Source: Chloracidobacterium sp. N
GTDB lineage: Bacteria; Acidobacteriota; Blastocatellia; Chloracidobacteriales; Chloracidobacteriaceae
Length of the DNA: 64,000 nt
Direction: 5' to 3'
NCBI RefSeq assembly: GCF_018304765.1
Contig: NZ_CP072642.1
Coordinates: forward strand, 2,385,819 to 2,449,818
The notes under the pieces were generated by a model. It was not told where the DNA came from. It searched no databases and was given only the letters and a program-made list of their open reading frames with translations. Made by a program: the position numbers and the translations under genes. The number at the start of each line of letters is the position of its first letter. Positions within the stretch are counted from its first letter, which is position 1. This document shows, in pieces, positions 38,926 through 63,682 of the stretch.

Positions 38926-38934
38926 AACGAGCTT

Positions 38935-39002
38935 GGGAGCGCGGGCGTCCCGCCCGCGGGGATCTGTGAGCCGTTTCACGCGGGCGGGACGCCCGCGCTC
39001 CC
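38935..39002. repeat. Inverted pair of REP-like elements (REPIN-like)
   Basis: A 23-base element (38935-38957) with GGAG at its left side and the hairpin GCGGGCG-TCC-CGCCCGC is followed, after 22 bases, by its exact reverse complement (38980-39002). This is the layout of a REPIN. It lies 9 bp after the stop of the secreted-protein gene. Confidence 0.8.
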
Positions 39003-39540
39003 AGGTGGCCCGTCGCGGCGCGATAATGGGGATGTCAACCCAGCGGTGTGGGGTTGGGGACGCGGGATGATTCAATTCAACCGTCGCTACGCGACGGGGG
39101 CGCTCGGGGGCGACGTGATCCGTGGGTTGAAAACCCACGGCTAAATTCATCCGTCGCTACGCGACGGGGGGATGTCAACCTGGTGGTGTGGTGGTTGCCC
39201 GTACGCGACGATGGGGGATGTGTGGGATGCCCGTGCCGTGGTGCAGAAACCCACGGCCGTGGAGGCCATTGGTCATTCGTTGGTCGTTACAACCGCATTT
39301 TTGCCGCTACGCGGCAAAAATTCCGTGGGTTGAAACCCATCGTGGGTGAACCCACGATCCGTGGGTTAAAACCCACGGCTAAATTCAGTTGCCGCTACGC
39401 GGCAGAAATGCGTTGCAGCCCACGACCAACGGCCCACGTCCACGGGTTTCCGTCCTACGGCGTAGGTATCCCAAAATCCACATCGTTATGTGCGGGCAAT
39501 CACGACACCGCCGGGTTGAAATCCTCCCGCGTCGCGTCAG

Positions 39541-39780
39541 CGACGGTTGAATTTAGCCCGGCGTTTCAACGCCGGGGTACGGGTTTCAACCCACGGATCA
39601 CGGTTGCCCACACACCCCCATGCGGGCGGGACGCCCGCGCTCCCAGCCTCGTCGCGTCAGCGACGGTTGAATTTAGCCCGGCGTTTCAACGCCGGGGTAC
39701 GGGTTTCAACCCACGGATCACGGTTGCCCACACACCCCCATGCGGGCGGGACGCCCGCGCTCCCAGCCTCGTCGCGTCAG
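39541..39780. repeat. Exact 120 bp tandem duplication
   Basis: Bases 39541-39660 and 39661-39780 are identical. Each unit holds part of a CGTCGC hairpin, a CCCGGCG hairpin, a TTTCAACCCACGG half-site and one REP-like hairpin. Identity suggests a recent event. Confidence 0.95.
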
Positions 39781-39878
39781 CGACGATTGAATACCATTCG
39801 TTAGAGTTCAGGCAGACAAAATGCCCACACCCCTGCCAAGGTGCAGGCGGGACGCCCGCGCTCCCTGGGGAAGCACCC

Positions 39879-45720: not shown

Positions 45721-46173
45721 ATGGCCAACACATACAGTTCGTTGTTCTACCACGTTGTTTTCAGCACAAAGCAGCGGACGAAGTTCATTCGGCCGGAAAT
45801 TGAGCAGCGTGTTTGGGCTTACTTGGGGGGTGTGGCGTCCCGGCAGGGGGCAAAGGCAGTACAGATTGGGGGTGTGGAGGATCATGTTCACGTGCTGCTG
45901 ATGGCGCCGCCGACAGTTTCGCCGGCGGAGCTTGTCAGGCGGATCAAGGGGGATTCGTCGCGCTGGATACACGAGGTGTTTCCGGAGTTGCGGAACTTTG
46001 GTTGGCAGGACGGGTATGGGGTGTTTTCGGTGAGCAGGTCGAATGTGCCGCAGGTGGTGAAATACATTCAGAACCAGCGTGAGCATCACCGGGTGCAGAC
46101 GTTTCAGGAGGAATATCTGTTGTTTTTGAAGAAGCACCAGGTGGCGTACGACGAGCGGTATCTGTGGGGGTGA
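45721..46173 (+). CDS. IS200/IS605-like HUH transposase, RAYT-type
   Basis: 150 residues, the size of Y1 transposases. The HUH motif is H55-V-H57 in GGVEDHVHVLL and the catalytic Tyr is Y115 (VVKYIQNQ). The start at 45721 has a strong GGAGGGGG ribosome binding site. No tnpB accompanies it. Ten bases after the stop come two REP-like hairpins in direct orientation, and cluster 2 continues for 2.2 kb. A REP-associated tyrosine transposase that acts on single-stranded hairpins is therefore likely (inference). All catalytic residues are present, so it may be active or domesticated. Confidence 0.88.
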   Translation: MANTYSSLFYHVVFSTKQRTKFIRPEIEQRVWAYLGGVASRQGAKAVQIGGVEDHVHVLLMAPPTVSPAELVRRIKGDSSRWIHEVFPELRNFGWQDGYGVFSVSRSNVPQVVKYIQNQREHHRVQTFQEEYLLFLKKHQVAYDERYLWG

Positions 46174-46183
46174 GGAACAACCT

Positions 46184-46234
46184 GGGAGCGCGGGCGTCCC
46201 GCCCGCATCCTGGGAGCGCGGGCGTCCCGCCCGC
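46184..46234 (+). repeat. Two direct REP-like elements after the transposase gene
   Basis: Identical 23-base elements at 46184-46206 and 46212-46234, each with GGAG on the left followed by GCGGGCG-TCC-CGCCCGC. The first starts 10 bp after the stop codon at 46173. Confidence 0.9.
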
Positions 46235-48415
46235 ATGAATCCAATGGATGGCATTTCAACCGTCGCTGACGCGACGGGGGGGGTTGGGGGGCGTCTGCGA
46301 TCCGTGGGTTGAAACCCACGGCTAAATTCAATCGTCGCTACGCGACGATGGGGATTCCACCAGCGATGGGTGGTTGCCCGGATGCAATGATGCGGATTTT
46401 GGGATACCTACGCCGTGGGGCGGAAACCCATTGGGACGTGGGACGAAAACCCGTGGACGTGGAACGGAAACCCGTGGGACATGGGACGGAAACCCATGGG
46501 CCGTGGGTCGTTGGTTGTGGGTTGCAACCGCATTTTTGCCGCGTAGCGGCAACGGAATTTTGCCGTGGGTTTCAACCCACGGATCACGGTCGCCCCCAAT
46601 CATTTTCCGTCGCGTCAGCGACGGTTGAATTCCACTGTGAATGCTAATCCGTTGTGTATCCGTACGGTGACGCCCACATTCCTGTGTGTGGGGGATGCCC
46701 GTGTTGTTTGGTGATATTCAACCGCGATCCGTGGGTTGAACCCATACCCCGGCGTTGAAACGCCGGGCTAAATTCAACCGTCGCTGACGCGACGGGGGGG
46801 GTTGGGGGGCGTCTGCGATCCGTGGGTTGAAACCCACGGCTAAATTCAATCGTCGCTACGCGACGATGGGGATTCCACCAGCGATGGGTGGTTGCCCGGA
46901 TGCAATGATGCGGATTTTGGGATACCTACGCCGTGGGGCGGAAACCCATTGGGACGTGGGACGAAAACCCGTGGACGTGGAACGGAAACCCGTGGGACAT
47001 GGGACGGAAACCCACGGGCCGTGGGTCGTTGGTTGTAGGTTACAACCGCATTTTTGCCGCGTAGCGGCAACGGAATTTAGCCGTGGGTTCAACCCACGGA
47101 TCGTGGGTTCACCCACGATAGGTTTCAACCCACGGAATTTTTGCCGCGTAGCGGCAAATGAATTTTGCCGTGGGTTTCAACCCACGGATCACGGTCGCCC
47201 ACCAATCATTTTCCGTCGCGTCAGCGACGGTTGAATACAACCCTTGTGATGTGAACGGAATGGCCACCGGAAACACCCCTTGGGTTGATTCCACCCGCAC
47301 GAATCCCCGACGGACGGCATTCATCCGTCGCTGACGCGACGGGAACCAATTGGGGCGACGTGATCCGTGGGTTGAAACCCACGGCAAAAATCAACCGTCG
47401 CTGACGCGACGGGGGCATTGGGGGCATCGCGATCCGTGGGTTGAAACCCACGGCTAAATTCAATCGTCGCTACGCGACGATGGGGATTCCACCAGCGATG
47501 GGTGGTTGCCCGGATGCAATGATGCGGATTTTGGGATACCTACGCCGTGGGGCGGAAACCCATTGGGACGTGGGACGAAAACCCGTGGACGTGGAACGGA
47601 AACCCGTGGGACGTGGGACGGAAACCCATGGGCCGTGGGTCGTTGGTTGTGGGTTGCAACCGCATTTTTGCCGCGTAGCGGCAACGGAATTTAGCCGTGG
47701 GTTCAACCCACGGATCGTGGGTTCACCCGCGATGGGTTTCAACCCACGGCAAAAATCAACCGTCGCTGACGCGACGGGGGCATTGGGGGCATCGCGATCC
47801 GTGGGTTGAAACCCACGGCTAAATTCAATCGTCGCTACGCGACGATGGGGATTCCACCAACGATGGGGGGTTGCCCGGATGCAATGATGCGGATTTTGGG
47901 ATACCTACGCCGTGGGGCGGAAACCCATTGGGACGTGGGACGAAAACCCGTGGCCGTGGGCCGTTGGTTGTAGGTTGCAACCGCATTTTTGCCGCGTAGC
48001 GGCAAATGAATTTTGCCGTGGGTTTCAACCCACGGATCACGGTCGCCCCCAATCATTTTCCGTCGCGTCAGCGACGGTTGAATTCCACCGTGAATGCTAA
48101 TCCGTTGTGTATCCGTACGGTGGCGCCCACATTCCTGTGTGTGGGGGAGATGCCCGTGTTGTTTGGTGATATTCAACCGCGATCCGTGGGTTCACCCACG
48201 ATGGGTTTCAACCCACGGAATTTTTGCCGCGTAGCGGCAACGGAATTTCGCCGTGGGTTTCAACCCACGGATCACGGTCGCCCCCAATCATTTTCCGTCG
48301 CGTCAGCGACGGATGAATCATCACGTGACAAACCCACCACATCGCCGGGTTGGAATCCCCCCTCGTCGCGTAGCGACGGAACTGGAACGCGGGCAAGATG
48401 CCCGCGCTCCCAGGG
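46184..48415. repeat. Hairpin-repeat cluster 2
   Basis: 2.2 kb without a supported gene between the transposase and the delta-60 genes. About 14 CGTCGC/GCGACG hairpins alternate with GTGGGTTGAAACCCAC-type hairpins. Four copies of the composite element run in reverse orientation (46332-46582, 46850-47135, 47464-47749, 47829-48035; the last lacks an internal part). Non-hairpin pieces of about 105 bp are repeated at 46628-46735 and 48086-48190. Short open frames here are repeat translations. Confidence 0.92.
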
Positions 48416-48449
48416 GAAAAAAGAGGGGCGGGTTGAAAACCCGCCCCTC
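48416..48449 (-). terminator. Rho-independent terminator of the delta-60 locus
   Basis: On the minus strand a 12-base GC-rich stem (GAGGGGCGGGTT/AACCCGCCCCTC) with a short loop is followed by six T. It lies about 60 bp after the stop at 48507. Confidence 0.85.
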
Positions 48450-48506: not shown

Positions 48507-51500
48507 TTACGGTACCCACTTGCCGATGACCGGTCGGTCAGTCGGCACACCGTAGTTCACCGTCAGGTTCGCCGGACCAGCCGAGTTGCTGTTCCGCAGG
48601 AAGAACGTCCCCGTACGGAACACCCCGATGGTCGTCACACCATCGCCATCCCAGTCGCCAGCCACCGCCACATCGTTCGGGTTGCCGAAGAAGAACTGGA
48701 GGTCAGGCGCACCGGACGAGTTCGTGTTGCGCAGCGCGAAGAACCCAACGCTCGCCCGGTACAGACCAATGGTCGTCACACCATCACCGTCCCAGTCGCC
48801 TACGATGGGCGTATCGGTCGGCAGCGCGTAGTTGATGATGATGTCCGCCGGGCCGGATATGTTGCTGTTGCGCAGCAGGAAGACCCCTGCCCGGAACAGA
48901 CCCACGGTCGTCGAGCCATTGCCATCCCAGTCGCCCGCAATCGGAATGTCTCCCGGCTGCGTGCCGTCAATCGCAAAGGCTGGCACCGTCGCAAAGCCCG
49001 CCGAGTTGCTGTTGCGCAGGAAGAACTGACCGTTCCGGAAGATGCCGATGGTCGTGACGCCGTCCGCATCCCAGTCGCCCGAAAGCGGCACGTCATTCGC
49101 CGTACCATAGAAGAAGTCGGTATCGGCATTGCCGGAGGTGTTCGAGAAGCGCAGGTAGAAGAAGCCGTTCGACGGACGGAACATACCCACCGTGTCCGGA
49201 CCGCTGTCCGGCGCCTGCGAGACCGTCACCGTCTGCGACGGCGCACCCTGCGTCGTCACCGTGATGGTGGCCTGCCGCGCCGCACCGCTGTTGCGGCCGA
49301 CCGAGAAGGCAACCGTACCCGTCGGGCCACCCGACGCGCCACCCGTGATGACCAGCCACGGCGCACTGCTCGTCGCCGTGTAGGTGCATCCCGAAGAGGT
49401 CGTCACCGTGAACTGACCCGTGCCGCCCGTCACCGGAAGCGAAGTGCCTGTCGCCGTGCCGAGCGTCAGCGTGCAGGTACCCGCCTGCGTGATGGTGATG
49501 TTCTGCCCGGCTACCGTGACCGTCGCCGAGCGTGGCGAACCCGTGTTTGCCGCCACCGTGAAGTTCACCGTGCTCGAACCGGAACCGCTCAACGGACTGG
49601 CCGAAATCCAGGTCGGGAGACTCGTAGTCGGGATCGTCCAGGAGCAACCAGAACCGGTCGTAATCTGGAACTGACCCGTGCCGCCAGCCACAGGGAAGCT
49701 CGCCGGCACGGCCGTCGCCGTGTACGTGCAGCCCGAATCCGGACCCTGGGTGAATTCGAAGATGATGGTCCTCAATTCTGGCGGCGTGACGGTTTCACTC
49801 GGCAGCGTCACCGTCACCGAACCCGGCCGGTTCGCCCCTGTGTTGTTGGGGGAGAGATTCACCACGATGTCCACAAAGCCCGGATTCGTGCTGCGCGGCA
49901 CCGCCCCCACGATGGTGACAAACGGCGAGTTCGTCGTGATCGTCGGGGTGAGGTTGCACAGCGAAACCGCGCTGCGGGTCATCGTGGCAATGACCATCTG
50001 GCCACCGGCCGGGTTCATTGCACCCAGGGGGATGGGGGGAGGCGGCGGGCCGGGCGGCGGAACCGGCGGGCCGGGCGGCGGAATCTGCGGGAAGGGAATC
50101 GGCTGGGAGGGCGGGAAGCTCGGCTGGACCAGCCCGTAGGAGCAGCCCGAACCGTTCTGCAACGCCGCGACACCGGGCCACCGGATGTCGAGGTTCAGCC
50201 CGTTGGGAGTGCCGGCACCGTCATTCTGGAAGTCGGCGCGCACCGACTCGAAGGTGTTGAACAGACCGCCAATGTAGGCCCGCCGCCGATCCGGATCGAG
50301 CGTGATGGTGTTCACCGTCATTCTCGTATCGGTGTAACGGAGACCGAAGGGTGGTGTCTGGTTGAAGGGCAGGTTGGGATAGTAGCTGATTTCTGAAGTA
50401 GCTCCTGGTGGTAGTGGTGGCGGTGGTGGCGTCAGGCCGCTACCAACTCCCGGGAAGGCACTGCCCGGGGCAAAAATGGAAGCCAGCGATCCCAGAGGAA
50501 GCACAGGCGGCGGGAACCCGCCAAACCCGGCCGCCAGGGCCACAGCATAGGGGCCAGGCTGGAAGACCAATGGCGCATTGGGGTTCTGCCCAACGCCCGG
50601 CGGCACCGCCAGCCATGTGGACAGAAAGGTTGCCTGTGGGACAGACGGGTTGTAAGGCGGCGCCGGGGGTGGCGGCAGGAAGGGGTTCAGGGCATCACCA
50701 AACTCCCCGTTGACACCCGTCCGGTGGACGCGCGCCCGCGTCCGGTTGTTGATGTAACCGATACCATCGGTTCCGGCAAGGTTCCGCGGCCCGATAAGGA
50801 ACGGCCCGCCAATGATGGGCCTGTCATCTGACTTGACAACAATCGTCCGCACTGTTGCAAGAGGATCAAGGTTGACACCAAACGGAAACCGCAAACCGAA
50901 AATATCATATTCTGGTTGCTGACCTGGTGGCTGACTGCGGCGCCCCCCTAGGAAAGTGTTATCCAGTCGCCCGTTGTCTCCAAGCAATCGGGTAAAGGCC
51001 ACACACACGGTGGGGGTTCCACTGCTGCCACCAGGATTGACAATGCTCCGGAACTGTCCGCCGATGAGAATCTTCCCAGCGTTGCTGCCAAGGGACTGCC
51101 GCGCCAAGGCAAAAACTTCACCGCCACGGCCGTTGGAGGTAGCACCTTGGTTTGGCCCCGTGGGTGGATCTGTCGGCTGAGGGGGAAGGAAAGCGTTTGG
51201 CGGCACAAAGCCGGAAGTACCCGTAGCGAAGTTTGCTCCAGCTTGGGCAAAGCTCGTATCCAGCGTACCATCACTATTGAAGCGGGCAATGTTGTAGCGG
51301 TCAACGTTATTGGCACGTGCAAACAATCCGCCAACCACAACCTTGCCATCCGGTTGCAGCAGAATGGCATTGACCCGCGCCCGGTTGTAAGCCACGAGTG
51401 GAATACCTTGGAAGGTAGCATTGCGCGCAATGCCTGTAACTACTGCCCCACCCGGATTGCCACAGAGCAGGTAGTCACCTACGCCGGGAATCGAGAAAGA

Positions 51501-51857
51501 TGAATCGCCAAAGGTCGGGTCCAGCGAACCGGTTGACGTGAGACGGGCAATCCCACCGCGCGGCACTTCGTTGTAGCACTTGAACTCCCCGCCGATGAGC
51601 ACCTTGCCGTCCGGCTGGAGTACAATGGCATTCACGCGGCCTTCGTTGGGGTTGTACTTCTCACCAGTGCCAGGGACGGGACTGGGGTTACTAGTACCGG
51701 GGTAAACCGGCGGGGCACCACAAGTACCGACCGGCAACGGCTGGATGCGCTCGGGGTCAACTGTAGTGAAACCAACGCCGGGTGCGCCAAAGCCGGTCGG
51801 ACCGCCCTTGCGGATGGATGTGTAGCCCGGCGGCGGGTTGGGATCATCCTGCCCCAC
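48507..51857 (-). CDS. Delta-60/BACON/FG-GAP repeat protein, 3' part of a split frame
   Basis: 1116 codons starting at a GTG that directly follows, in the same frame, the TAG ending the upstream gene. No signal peptide. Order: delta-60 repeats (VNAIVLQPDGKVLIGGEF..., INAILLQPDGKVVVGGLF), a Pro/Gly-rich region, two BACON-type domains (CSWTIPTTSLPTWISASPLSG, CTYTATSSAPWLVITGG), then FG-GAP-like repeats (GDWDGDGVTTIGLYR, FFLRNSNSAGPA). Such proteins are secreted adhesins or carbohydrate-binding surface proteins. Without its own signal sequence it could be exported only as a fusion with the upstream part. Two hairpins and a terminator follow the stop. Confidence 0.8.
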   Translation of the reverse strand: MGQDDPNPPPGYTSIRKGGPTGFGAPGVGFTTVDPERIQPLPVGTCGAPPVYPGTSNPSPVPGTGEKYNPNEGRVNAIVLQPDGKVLIGGEFKCYNEVPRGGIARLTSTGSLDPTFGDSSFSIPGVGDYLLCGNPGGAVVTGIARNATFQGIPLVAYNRARVNAILLQPDGKVVVGGLFARANNVDRYNIARFNSDGTLDTSFAQAGANFATGTSGFVPPNAFLPPQPTDPPTGPNQGATSNGRGGEVFALARQSLGSNAGKILIGGQFRSIVNPGGSSGTPTVCVAFTRLLGDNGRLDNTFLGGRRSQPPGQQPEYDIFGLRFPFGVNLDPLATVRTIVVKSDDRPIIGGPFLIGPRNLAGTDGIGYINNRTRARVHRTGVNGEFGDALNPFLPPPPAPPYNPSVPQATFLSTWLAVPPGVGQNPNAPLVFQPGPYAVALAAGFGGFPPPVLPLGSLASIFAPGSAFPGVGSGLTPPPPPLPPGATSEISYYPNLPFNQTPPFGLRYTDTRMTVNTITLDPDRRRAYIGGLFNTFESVRADFQNDGAGTPNGLNLDIRWPGVAALQNGSGCSYGLVQPSFPPSQPIPFPQIPPPGPPVPPPGPPPPPIPLGAMNPAGGQMVIATMTRSAVSLCNLTPTITTNSPFVTIVGAVPRSTNPGFVDIVVNLSPNNTGANRPGSVTVTLPSETVTPPELRTIIFEFTQGPDSGCTYTATAVPASFPVAGGTGQFQITTGSGCSWTIPTTSLPTWISASPLSGSGSSTVNFTVAANTGSPRSATVTVAGQNITITQAGTCTLTLGTATGTSLPVTGGTGQFTVTTSSGCTYTATSSAPWLVITGGASGGPTGTVAFSVGRNSGAARQATITVTTQGAPSQTVTVSQAPDSGPDTVGMFRPSNGFFYLRFSNTSGNADTDFFYGTANDVPLSGDWDADGVTTIGIFRNGQFFLRNSNSAGFATVPAFAIDGTQPGDIPIAGDWDGNGSTTVGLFRAGVFLLRNSNISGPADIIINYALPTDTPIVGDWDGDGVTTIGLYRASVGFFALRNTNSSGAPDLQFFFGNPNDVAVAGDWDGDGVTTIGVFRTGTFFLRNSNSAGPANLTVNYGVPTDRPVIGKWVP

Positions 51858-53937: not shown

Positions 53938-54615
53938 CCGAATGGTTTACTCGAATACCAGTCTTCATGTGCACGACTACGAACTGGTAGCCCCAAAAAA
54001 TTTCCGCCAACGCTAGCCCTTCTGACATGTGCGCGTCAAGCCAGGCGTTGTGCCGGTCACGTTTGCTCCGAAGCGTTATGCCTTTGCCGGAACCATAAGG
54101 CCACTCACCTCCTCGAAGATTTCTACCCCGTGATCAGCGGTCACGTGGCGACCGCCCTCCGGTGCGGTTGAGTACCGGAGGGGCACAACGCCGCCAACTG
54201 GCCGGTTGTATCCCTGTCCACACGACACCCCCGGCGCGACGCCGGAAAGGAAGAGGGGCGCCGACGGACAGACCGGACGCGCTCCTAGCCAGCCGCGCGC
54301 TGCGGTTCGGCTGGAGAGCCAGTTCCACCTTGTGCCGGTATTGAATAGGTGGGACTGCCTGAAAAAGCAAAGGCAGCCAAAAAGCTTCACAGGACAATGT
54401 TATAGAAAGCACAACACGAGACTCCAGAAACAGCGCTGGACGGCAAAGCGGGTTTGCAATCCGAAGCTGACGACCTGGCCAACCTGGCGCCGCCCATCAG
54501 GATGCGGAGACGTTGTTGCATAGTTTCAAGATGACTCTGGGCGGCACTCTATTACAGCGTTTGCGGGCGTGTCAAAGGTTTTCTTGGCGGGTGTTACCGT
54601 GGGGTAACGCTGCGT
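53938..54615. other. Long region upstream of the delta-60 locus, no recognised gene
   Basis: On the minus strand CCTCCGGT/ACCGGAGG and GCGGTC/GACCGC form two neighbouring hairpins (54130-54180 region). A GAGGAGGT ribosome-binding-like sequence and a six-codon frame MVPAKA follow (about 54076-54115). Frames of about 100 codons here show no family features. It could be a leader or decayed mobile DNA. Confidence 0.4.
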
Positions 54616-55790
54616 GGGAGCGCGGGCATCCTGCCCGCGTGGGCGTTGGGCATCGCACGATCCGGGGGTTGGAATCCGTTACGGGTTTGAACCTACGTTA
54701 TGTTCAGGCGTCGCTACGCGACGCGGGACGATTGGGGGGAACATCCTCCCCCGGCGTTGAAACGCCGGGCTAAATTCAACCGTCGCTACGCGACGGGCCT
54801 GGGAGCGCGGGCGTCCCGCCCGCACAAATCCCCAACGGATGGCATTCAACCGTCGCTGACGCGACGGGGGATGGCGGGGGCGCTGCGACCCGTGGGTTAA
54901 AACCCATCGTGGGTGAACCCACGATCCGTGGGTTGAAACCCACGGCTAAATTCATTTGCCGCTACGCGGCAAAAATTAGGTATCCTAAAATCCGCATTGT
55001 TGTGTGCGGGCAATCACGACACCGCCGGGTTGAAATCCTCCCTCGTCGCGTAGCGACGGCTGATTTTAGCCGTGGGTTTCAACCCACGGATCACGTCGCC
55101 CCAATTGGTTCCCGTCGCGTAGCGACGGATGAATGCCATCCGTTGGGGATTTGTGCGGGCGGGACGCCCGCGCTCCCAGGGGTTCCGGTGGCCATTCCGT
55201 TCACATCACAAGGGTTGTATTCAACCGTCGCTGACGCGACGGGGGGATGGGGATCGCCCATGATCCGTGGGTTGAAACCCACGGCTAAAATCAATCGTCG
55301 CTACGCGACGAGGCGGGTTTCAATTCGGCGATGTGGGTTGGGGTCACGGGATGATTCAACCGTCGCTACGCGACGGGCCTGGGAGCGCGGGCGTCCCGCC
55401 CGCATAAATCCAACGGATGGCATTTCAACCGTCGCTGACGCGACGGGGGGGGTTGGGGGGCGTCTGCGATCCGTGGGTTAAAACCCATCGTGGGTGAACC
55501 CACGATCCGTGGGTTGAAACCCACGGCTAAATTCATTTGCCGCTACGCGGCAAAAATTAGGTATCCTAAAATCCGCATTGTTGTGTGCGGGCAATCACGA
55601 CACCGCCGGGTTGAAATCCTCCCTCGTCGCGTAGCGACGGCTGATTTTAGCCGTGGGTTTCAACCCACGGATCACGTCGCCCCAATTGGTTCCCGTCGCG
55701 TAGCGACGGATGAATGCCATCCGTCGGGGATTCATGCGGGCGGGACGCCCGTACTACCAAGCTTGCGGGCGGGACGCCCGCGCTCCCAGG
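54616..55790. repeat. Hairpin-repeat cluster 3
   Basis: No supported gene. REP-like elements lie at 54616, 54801 and 55765, the last in sense with the WD40 gene that ends at 55814. Two nearly identical composite elements of about 270 bp are placed 581 bp apart (54890-55160 and 55471-55741). CGTCGC, TTGCCGC and GTGGGTT hairpins alternate between them. Confidence 0.92.
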
Positions 55791-55813
55791 GAAGGTGCCC
55801 GCGTTCCCTGGTG

Positions 55814-60611: not shown

Positions 60612-60626
60612 AGGTGGGCATCACCT

Positions 60627-62180
60627 GGGAGCGCGGGCATCTTGCCCGCAAGCCTGGGAGCGCGGGCGTCCCGCCCGCATGAATCCCCGACGGATGGCAT
60701 TCATCCGTCGCTGACGCGACGGGAACCAATTGGGGGGCGACACGATCCGTGGGTTGAAACCCATCGTGGGTGAACCCACGATCCGTGGGTTGAAACCCAC
60801 GGCTAAATTCCGTTGCCGCTACGCGGCAAAAATGCGGTTGCAACCCACAATCAACGACCCACGGGTCTCCGATGGCCCACGGCCACGGGTCTCCGCCCCA
60901 TGGCACGGGTATCCGACGCCTCCCGTCGTCGCGTAGCGACGGATGAATTTTGCCGTGGGTTTCAACCCACGGATTGGGGCAACCCCATCCACCCGTCGCG
61001 TCAGCGACGGTTGAATCATTGCGTGACCAACCCACCACGTCGCCGGGTTGTCCCCATCGCGTAGGGAAACGCACCGCATCGGCCCGCGTCGCGTAGCGAC
61101 GATTGAATTTTGCCGTGGGTTCAACCCACGGATTGTGTGATGCCCAATGTCCACGTGGGCGGGACGCCCACGCCTTACATTCACCCGTCGCTACGCGACG
61201 GAAACCAAATTGGGGGGCGCGGCGGTCCGTGGGTTGAAACCCATCGTGGGTGAACCCACGATCCGTGGGTTAAGACCCACGGCTAAATTCAGTTGCCGCT
61301 ATGCGGCAGAAATGCGGTTGCAGCCCACGACCAACGGCCCACGTCCACGGGTTTCCGTCCCACGGCGTAGGTATCCCAAAATCCACATCGTTATGTGCGG
61401 GCAATCACGACACCGCCGGGTTGAAATCCTCCCCCGTCGCGTAGCGACGATTGAATTTAGCCCGGCGTTTCAACGCCGGGGTACAGGTTTCAACCCACGG
61501 ATCACGGACGCCCCAATGCCCCCCCGTCGCGTAGCGACGGTTGAATATCACCAAACCACACGGGCATCTCCCACACACGGGAATGCGAATGCCACCTTAC
61601 GGATACACAACGGATCAACATCCACGGTGGAATTCAACCGTCGCTGACGCGACGGAAAATGATTGGGGGGCGACCTTGATCCGTGGGTTAAAACCCACGG
61701 CTAAATTCAGTTCCCGCTACGCGACAGAAATGCGGTTGCAGCCCACGACCAACGGCCCACGTCCACGGGTTTCCGTCCCACGGCGTAGGTATCCCAAAAT
61801 CCACATCGTTATGTGCGGGCAATCACGACACCGCCGGGTTGAAATCCTCCCGCGTCGCGTCAGCGACGGTTGAATTTAGCCCGGCGTTTCAACGCCGGGG
61901 TACGGGTTTCAACCCACGGATCACGGACGCCCCCATGCCCCCCCGTCGCGTAGCGACGATTGAATTTAGCCCGGCGTTTCAACGCCGGGGTACGGGTTTC
62001 AACCCACGGATCACGGACGCCCCAATGCCCCCCCGTCGCGTAGCGACGATTGAATTTAGCCGTGGGTTTCAACCCACGGATCGCGAGGACCCCATATCGG
62101 TTCCCGTCGCGTCAGCGACGGTTGAAATTAGGATGCGGGCGGGACGCCCGCGCTCCCAGGCTTGCGGGCGGGACGCCCGC
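60627..62180. repeat. Hairpin-repeat cluster 4
   Basis: No separate gene is supported between the permease gene and the CrtI-family gene. Two REP-like elements (60627-60649 with a TCT loop, and 60656-60678) open it, and two more (62135-62157, 62164-62180) close it inside the convergent gene's 3' end. Composite elements lie at 60747-60942 (shortened), 61227-61450 and 61681-61869. From 61853 to about 62125 units of about 90 bp are tandem. Confidence 0.92.
61853..62125. repeat. Tandem array of about 90 bp hairpin units
   Basis: CGTCGC hairpins begin at 61853, 61944 and 62034 (periods 91 and 90; the extra base comes from the TCA against TA loop). The first two units each carry a CCCGGCG hairpin and a TTTCAACCCACGGATC segment. 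The 62034 unit has only the latter. Confidence 0.85.
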
Positions 62181-63682
62181 ATTCCAATGTCGCGCCAGGC
62201 ATTGATGCCGGAAAGCGCACAGGCCGGTGTTCCCTGCCCTGGAAACACCGTGTCGCCCACCAGCCAGAAGTCGGGCAGGCCCACATCACGCGAACCAATC
62301 CCGAACAGGTTGCTGTTCCACAGGGTCGTCCGCAAACCGCCCACCATGCCCTGCGCGCGGCCCGTATAGCGCGCAAACGTGCGCGGCGTCCCCGGCAACG
62401 CACACTCGATGCCTTCCCGAAGATTCGGAAACACCCGCTCCGCTGCCGTCAGCAGCCGCTCCACCACGGCCGCCCGCCGCGCTGCATAGTCTTCCGGCGA
62501 CAACTCCCACCACGGGGATACTTCCGTGTGGGTGGAAAGATTCAGTGTCCGGCGACCTGGCGGGGCGCTGGCGCGATCATCCACTTCGCTCAAACTGAGA
62601 AAGGCGCTGTTGCCGTCGTCAAAGGGCGCGCCGTATTCCAAAAGCACCTGGTGGTTGAGCGGCGTATCGTTGGGAATGACCTCCGCCCGGACGCCCAGAT
62701 AGAGCGTAAATGCCCCCCAGCCCACGCCAGCCTTGTTCAGAGGACGCTTCAGCCGGCGCGACACATCCGCCGCCACCAGCGAGGACACGTTCCAGATGGG
62801 CAGGTTGGCCACCACCCGCGGCGCATGCACGGTCAGCCCCCGGTCAGTCTCCACCGTGTAGCCGCCACCCGCAGCCGGAGTGATGCGTGTCACCCGCTGG
62901 CGCAGCCGAAGTACGCCGCCCAGCTCACGGAACGCTGCCACATGCGCCTTGATAAAGCTCTTCATGCCGCCGCGCGCGCGCCGGATGCCGTGGCGGTAAA
63001 TGTCCAGCCCGGCCGCGCCGTTCAGAAAAGGCGCCCGCGCCGCTGTTTCCTGCACCGTGATGAGCAGCAGCCCGTCAAGAAAAGCCCGCAGCGGGGCATG
63101 GTCAGCCAGCCGGTAGCGCCGCAGCACGTCTTCCACGGTCGAAAACAGGTAGGGCGCTGCGCGGAGAAAATCCGGCGAAACCAGACGCAGGTTGGCGACG
63201 ACATCACGCCAGTGGCGCAGCGGCAGCACCGGCCGTTTGGCCGTCGCCGTCCAGAGCGTGTCGGCCGTCCGGTCCACAAGCTGCCAGAAGGCGCGCAGCC
63301 GCTCCGCCTCTTCGGGCGTCCGGGCAAAGCGCACCACGCGCTCATGCGCCCAAATTTCAGGATTGTGCGCGATGTGAACACAGCGGTCGGGCAGGTGCAC
63401 ATCCACCTGTTCGATGAGGGTGCTTTCGGGCAGCGGCCGTCCAAGCCGGTTGAACACCTGCGTGTGGAGGCCAACCGGGTCAAGGCCCATCAGCACCGTT
63501 GCGCCCACATCGAAGTTGTAGCCCTTGTGGAAAAAGTACCCGGCGCAGCCGCCGGCCTTGTCGTGGGCTTCAAGCAGCAGTGTCCGGTAGCCGTCGTGCT
63601 GGAGCAACAGGGCAGCCGTCAAACCAGCCACGCCAGCACCAATGACCACCACATCGAAGGTTGTTTCGGCTAAGGGACGCAT
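62069..63682 (-). CDS. CrtI-family FAD oxidoreductase (carotenoid desaturase/isomerase-like)
   Basis: 537 residues from the ATG at 63682. FAD-binding VVVIGAGVAGLTAALLL near the N-terminus, YFFHKGYNFDVGATVL, GGMKSFIKA, and the C-terminal FAD motif LVGDTVFPGQGTPACALSGINAWRDI fit phytoene desaturase, CrtD and carotenoid isomerase (CrtH) relatives; the reaction cannot be fixed. After WRDI the last 38 residues are translated REP and CGTCGC repeats (ASRPQAWERGRPAR, STVADATG), and the stop codon lies inside a GTGGGTTGA repeat. The native end has therefore been replaced. miaA is 9 bp upstream on the same strand. Confidence 0.87.
   Translation of the reverse strand: MRPLAETTFDVVVIGAGVAGLTAALLLQHDGYRTLLLEAHDKAGGCAGYFFHKGYNFDVGATVLMGLDPVGLHTQVFNRLGRPLPESTLIEQVDVHLPDRCVHIAHNPEIWAHERVVRFARTPEEAERLRAFWQLVDRTADTLWTATAKRPVLPLRHWRDVVANLRLVSPDFLRAAPYLFSTVEDVLRRYRLADHAPLRAFLDGLLLITVQETAARAPFLNGAAGLDIYRHGIRRARGGMKSFIKAHVAAFRELGGVLRLRQRVTRITPAAGGGYTVETDRGLTVHAPRVVANLPIWNVSSLVAADVSRRLKRPLNKAGVGWGAFTLYLGVRAEVIPNDTPLNHQVLLEYGAPFDDGNSAFLSLSEVDDRASAPPGRRTLNLSTHTEVSPWWELSPEDYAARRAAVVERLLTAAERVFPNLREGIECALPGTPRTFARYTGRAQGMVGGLRTTLWNSNLFGIGSRDVGLPDFWLVGDTVFPGQGTPACALSGINAWRDIGMRASRPQAWERGRPARILISTVADATGTDMGSSRSVG

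Follow-up and report, generated by a model that had tools for sequence, protein, structure and literature searches.

The gene T1 of Chloracidobacterium sp. N appears to encode a single-copy nuclease of TnpA-Y1 subclass 1.2 whose cognate DNA is a double-hairpin REP element of the form B-linker-nTAG-A, while the GGGAG hairpins next to it are those of a second nuclease, T2; we assign this reading a probability of about 0.8. The window, that is the whole stretch of DNA analysed (64,000 nucleotides), contains T1 with four repeat clusters. The features of the T1 locus, in window coordinates, are listed below.

45721 to 46173, plus strand: T1, a Y1 (HUH) transposase-like nuclease gene of 150 aa, its stop codon ending at 46173
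46180 to 46207, plus strand: G element (GGGAG hairpin), copy 1, assigned to T2
46208 to 46235, plus strand: G element (GGGAG hairpin), copy 2
46260 to 46277, minus strand: an additional inner hairpin B beside the T1 gene
46302 to 46321, minus strand: hairpin A with a TTAG foot, the downstream end of the T1 unit (minus-strand CCGTGGGTTTCAACCCACGG)
46322 to 46330, minus strand: the linker between B and A, bearing the TAG tag (minus-strand TGAATTTAG)
46331 to 46349, minus strand: outer hairpin B, which completes the B-linker-TAG-A double hairpin

The T1 ORF starts 14 nt past the end of a TonB-domain gene, carries GGAGGGGG upstream of its ATG, and matches Pfam Y1_Tnp (E 2.5e-31). The catalytic residues named in the original prediction, H55-V-H57 and Y115, are both present. 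H57 and Y115 are invariant among 22 T1 homologs, as are Q119, H122, H123, W95, and Q96, and H55 is kept in at least 90%. The motifs DHVH, WQ, and YIQNQREHH (Y115-IQN-Q119-RE-H122-H123) in a protein of this length agree with the signature of subclass 1.2 (Y---Q--HH, DHVH, WQ, ~150 aa; PMC6006769), and T1 fits this subclass by sequence. A search of NCBIfam matched T1 to the IS200 model NF033573 alone, leaving the RAYT model NF047646 unmatched, and in place of the class-2 RAYT motif YI..NP the protein has Y115-I-Q-N-Q119. Since its motifs are those published for subclass 1.2, T1 is not a class-2 RAYT; the earlier identification of T1 as a RAYT was rejected on the HMM matches, the YIQNQ motif, and this signature. 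The PDB sequence relatives of T1 are the TnpA proteins of ISDra2 and IS608, which are also the best fold matches to its AlphaFold2 model (pLDDT 89.7), the E. coli TnpA-REP ranking 30th among the fold matches.

The published survey of subclass 1.2 (Quentin et al. 2018; PMC6006769) described proteins that share with T1 the ~150-aa length, DHVH, WQ, Y---Q--HH, a C-terminal extension, and a low copy number. The surveyed hosts were mostly Cyanobacteria and Bacteroidetes, and the members were without IS properties and had no REP listed, whereas T1 has a defined double-hairpin element and its type extends to further phyla. T1-type genes occur in Acidobacteriota, Verrucomicrobiota, Planctomycetota, and others.

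An HUH/Y1 nuclease gene adjoining REP-like hairpins had been correctly recognized, for the 150-aa Y1_Tnp ORF is followed directly by the two G elements. These had been called identical and given a GGAG foot; they agree to 96% over 28 nt and share the core CTGGGAGCGCGGGCGTCCCGCCCGC. The double-hairpin element of T1 lies past both of them, at 46302 to 46349, and reads B-TGAATTTAG-A on the minus strand. Four clusters within 24 kb were likewise found as described (~38.9-39.9, 46.2-48.4, 54.6-55.8, and 60.6-62.2 kb), with the following composition, in which G is the GGGAG hairpin and no strand is assigned to a cluster as a whole.

38931 to 39878: repeat cluster 1, with G (plus) at the left, A/B units, and G (minus) at the right
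46180 to 48424: repeat cluster 2, after T1, with two G (plus), A/B units on both strands, and G (minus) at 48388 to 48406
54612 to 55800: repeat cluster 3, with G (plus) and G (minus) around A/B units
60623 to 62181: repeat cluster 4, with two G (plus), A/B units, and two G (minus)

Two features of the clusters had gone unremarked. They consist mainly of hairpin types A and B, and every cluster starts with a forward GGGAG hairpin and ends with a reverse one, with A and B in both orientations in between. The window holds about 30 double-hairpin units with a TAG, TTG, or TCG foot, every one of them inside the four clusters; shuffled windows gave none. In cluster 3 a stretch of about 300 nt is duplicated (54866 to 55165 and 55447 to 55746, 97%). 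Across the genome, the GGGAG hairpin occurs in 65 copies at two mismatches or fewer (a reversed control pattern gave 0, so the count exceeds chance) and hairpin A in 48, and four of the nine hairpin-A clusters fall within the 1.7% of the genome that surrounds T1. Two REP systems are therefore mixed in the arrays of the window. None of the papers searched mentions these hairpin sequences.

The DNA paired with T1 was sought in the flanks of its homologs, drawn from 396 genomes within the phylum and, in addition, from named contigs of other genome records; the count set comprised 74 homologs, spread over several phyla, whose flanks were complete. TAG-tagged hairpins stood on both sides of 25 of the 74, in inverted orientation, and on at least one side of 39. 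Under the strict criterion the other 35 lacked a TAG hairpin, their tags being diverged or their stems imperfect, and many of them are from Bacteroidota; an inverted-repeat search run with no tag criterion gave a score of at least 14 at 66 of 78 T1 loci. The end is built of a small hairpin B, a linker of 10-13 nt ending in nTAG, and hairpin A, which has an 8-bp stem and usually a 4-nt loop. Of 71 ends, 65 had hairpin B on the outer side of A, and the linker measured 10-13 nt in 64 of 65 ends, against 11% in shuffled sequence. The left and right A stems of the same locus agreed at 6.55 of 7 positions and were identical in 34 of 44 cases, whereas stems from different loci agreed at 4.52 of 7, and none of 10,000 permutations reached the within-locus value. 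GA at -8/-7 and a TTnA loop recur across loci, neither having been selected for. Covariation in the A stem was excluded as evidence, since the sequence set had been chosen for perfect stems. Many homologs have both ends, with a fixed spacing to the gene.

The GGGAG hairpins have a different partner. T2 is a second Y1 gene, located about 1 Mb from T1.

C1:1399053-1399607: T2, second Y1 gene

T2 matches the REP-associated tyrosine transposase model NF047646 above its cut-off, has the Y motif YIGNNP, and finds TnpA-REP 4ER8 as its sole PDB match. GGGAG hairpins flank it on both sides, and hairpins with a GG[AT]nC foot and variable stems stood on both sides of 19 of 27 T2 homologs and on at least one side of 26. 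TAG-footed hairpins were found at none of these 27, and two-sided GG[AT]nC-footed (GGAG-type) hairpins at none of the 74 T1 homologs. Shuffled flanks of either set gave no two-sided match in any case. On these sequence grounds we assign the GGGAG hairpins beside T1 to T2, the true RAYT, and the predicted role of GGAG hairpins as the substrate of T1 gives way to the TAG double hairpin. It is accordingly very unlikely that T1 is a RAYT for the GGGAG hairpins directly 3' of it, from which they spread. Their direct adjacency in two sister species and their abundance in only the two T1-bearing species of the genus would suit such a role, but the homolog flanks rule against this pairing, and it is T2, not T1, that has the RAYT model and TnpA-REP matches and GGGAG flanks of its own.

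The distribution across genomes bears on the same question. Within the genus, GGGAG hairpins number 65 and 80 in the two species with T1 and 0-1 in the five species without it, and hairpin A numbers 48 and 43 against 0. The expectation that the repeats would be numerous only in relatives with the gene was thus borne out, but not as a sign of pairing: both T1-bearing species also carry T2, so presence or absence in the genus alone cannot assign the pairing and was discarded as proof of it. In the phylum sample, hairpin A was found in 18 of 79 T1-positive and 1 of 317 T1-negative genomes (p 7e-13, uncorrected for phylogeny), which associates T1 with the double hairpins at the genome level. A GGGAG count of at least 3 followed T2 given T1 (p 2e-4) and was more weakly linked to T1 given T2 (p 0.016), both values again uncorrected for phylogeny; the co-occurrence of T1 and T2 partly confounds these genome-level tests. 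Where T1 occurs without T2, for instance in G069 and G044, the genome has hairpin A and no GGGAG hairpins, which also speaks against T1 as the GGGAG enzyme. In two others, G057 and G255, T1 is accompanied by GGGAG hairpins, with T2 absent at the cut-off used.

The hairpins might instead terminate transcription or govern RNA stability and owe their spread to recombination, their adjacency to a transposase being incidental. They are mostly intergenic palindromes, and the array after T1 is ~2.2 kb here and ~0.8 kb in the sister species, a length difference of the kind expected from recombination. We regard this explanation as most improbable, for the hairpins are placed in inverted orientation with a conserved TAG tag and a fixed linker, the left and right stems are identical within loci, and hairpin A is nearly exclusive to T1-bearing genomes. 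Array length was the only difference between the sister species seen at G and array sites. Comparison of the two gave no clean empty site, the isolated G elements being either present in both and decayed or changed by recombination; since the isolated GGGAG sites are common to both, recent transposition is not demonstrated by them.

Whether T1 is simply a mobile element needs closer weighing. It could be an ordinary minimal IS200-group IS with double-hairpin ends, the arrays being decayed copies or MITEs and no domestication having occurred. Its nearest folds and HMMs are those of IS200/IS605 TnpA (ISDra2, IS608), many homologs keep both ends at a fixed gene distance, and several genomes have multiple T1 homologs. 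However, T1 has one full copy in the genome (3.7 Mb, two contigs) rather than multiple near-identical ones, and where other genomes have multiple homologs, these mostly share 40-65% identity with T1. Nor do two ends bracket the gene here: the downstream A/B end alone is present, and an upstream double-hairpin end was not found at the T1 locus. T1-type ends are moreover inverted, with tags outward as in REPINs, in contrast to the one-strand LE/RE of IS605, and published subclass 1.2 is of low copy and without IS properties (PMC6006769). We thus consider an ordinary IS unlikely, though a good deal less so than the preceding alternatives. In the five other species of the genus no T1 adjoins the conserved MBL-TonB pair, and the 3' neighbours of the pair differ, so the exact boundary of T1 is not defined by an empty site. 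Between the two sister species T1 shows 3 synonymous and 2 nonsynonymous changes, too few for dN/dS.

The preferred reading, a subclass 1.2 nuclease with its own double-hairpin REP, likens T1 in its mode of action to the class-2 RAYT/TnpA-REP systems (PMC2817692, PMC3116915, PMC3733652), in which an HUH-Y1 enzyme also lies between inverted tagged hairpins and one gene serves many elements, among them gene-less inverted dimers. T1 is flanked by tagged REP hairpins that are repeated in the genome (A/B downstream here, on both sides in many homologs), and gene-less TAG-A...A-CTA inverted pairs resembling REPINs were found at the following sites.

G069, C151:35881 (plus) and 35932 (minus): gene-less TAG-A/A-CTA pair
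G161, C25:8690 (plus) and 8820 (minus): gene-less TAG-A/A-CTA pair
G044, C18:37239 (plus) and 37386 (minus): gene-less TAG-A/A-CTA pair

These flanks support the view that T1 works like a class-2 RAYT, not that it belongs to that class: T1 has neither the NP motif nor a RAYT HMM match, its homologs carry nTAG where class-2 RAYT REPs and REPINs carry GTAG, and its element has two hairpins and a tagged linker of 10-13 nt, unlike the RAYT REP. TIRYT/TIRtrons (PMC3733652) and class 3 TnpA-Y1 (PMC6006769), both reported in Acidobacteria, resemble T1 in having a Y1 gene between inverted, partly self-complementary repeats. The protein subclasses differ, however, as does the class 3 foot, CnGA (PMC6006769), from the nTAG of T1 homologs; the TIRs have been described as unrelated to GTAG REPs (PMC3733652).

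By analogy with IS200/IS605 and TnpA-REP, T1 would bind, cleave, and mobilize the double hairpins. It may recognize hairpin A in its folded, single-stranded form, cleave close to the TAG tag by means of Y115, and then rejoin the DNA. The arrangement in many homologs, a gene between two inverted copies with TAG on the outer side of A, can be compared to a REPtron or a gene-containing REPIN, and the gene-less inverted pairs and the arrays could have arisen through the action of T1 in trans. Because the downstream end alone is kept, T1 is probably immobile as a unit in this lineage, though it may still act on A/B elements.

A wider possibility, which we put forward only tentatively, is that subclass 1.2 is a widespread and unrecognized family of REP-processing enzymes acting on TAG double hairpins, coupled here to a second REP system through GGGAG dimers that enclose T1-type units. 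If this were true, one nuclease might mobilize the elements of the other as cargo, giving rise to nested arrays. The flanks of the T1 homologs in any case provide the orphan subclass 1.2, in several phyla, with a specific and testable DNA substrate of clear grammar. They also illustrate how REPs can be mis-assigned by adjacency alone, as the hairpins nearest to T1 are those of another enzyme. With two nuclease-element pairs that can be told apart, this small genome offers a natural setting for studying the evolution of hairpin and tag specificity and the origin of mosaic repeat arrays.

Several minor observations were made. At Bacteroidota T1 homologs L159, L160, L172, and L176, a flanking hairpin, AGCCCTGAAAGGGC, resembles B, and a clear TAG-tagged A is often absent. 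The sister species has at L040 (G005:C1:2294845-2295204) an additional IS200/IS605-type TnpA adjoining a TnpB-like ORF and unmatched in the genome studied here (G000). Within the window, positions 48507 to 51857 (minus strand) encode a large DUF5122/BACON protein whose C-terminal repeat units are spaced at about 140 nt. A stop-free ORF of 1206 aa for an HmaB/DUF1156 DNA-adenine methylase encloses T2 in frame, together with its GGGAG REPs.

L057:1638-5258, equal to G000:C1:~1397637-1401257: methylase ORF containing T2

In several genomes T2-type RAYTs are also in frame within other large enzymes (L067, L221, L222, L224, L225, L229, L232), their hosts being a DUF1156 methylase, there at a different site, methylases of the N6_N4 and Eco57I types, and an AMP-binding synthetase, in which two positions are occupied; judged from domain calls, the habit resembles that of inteins. 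G006, a complete congener without T1, carries on C2 (L043/L067) a methylase ORF with a RAYT-like match, along with many in-frame copies of another repeat, VEQTFLSVSSPEQTQAEMPAPHS.
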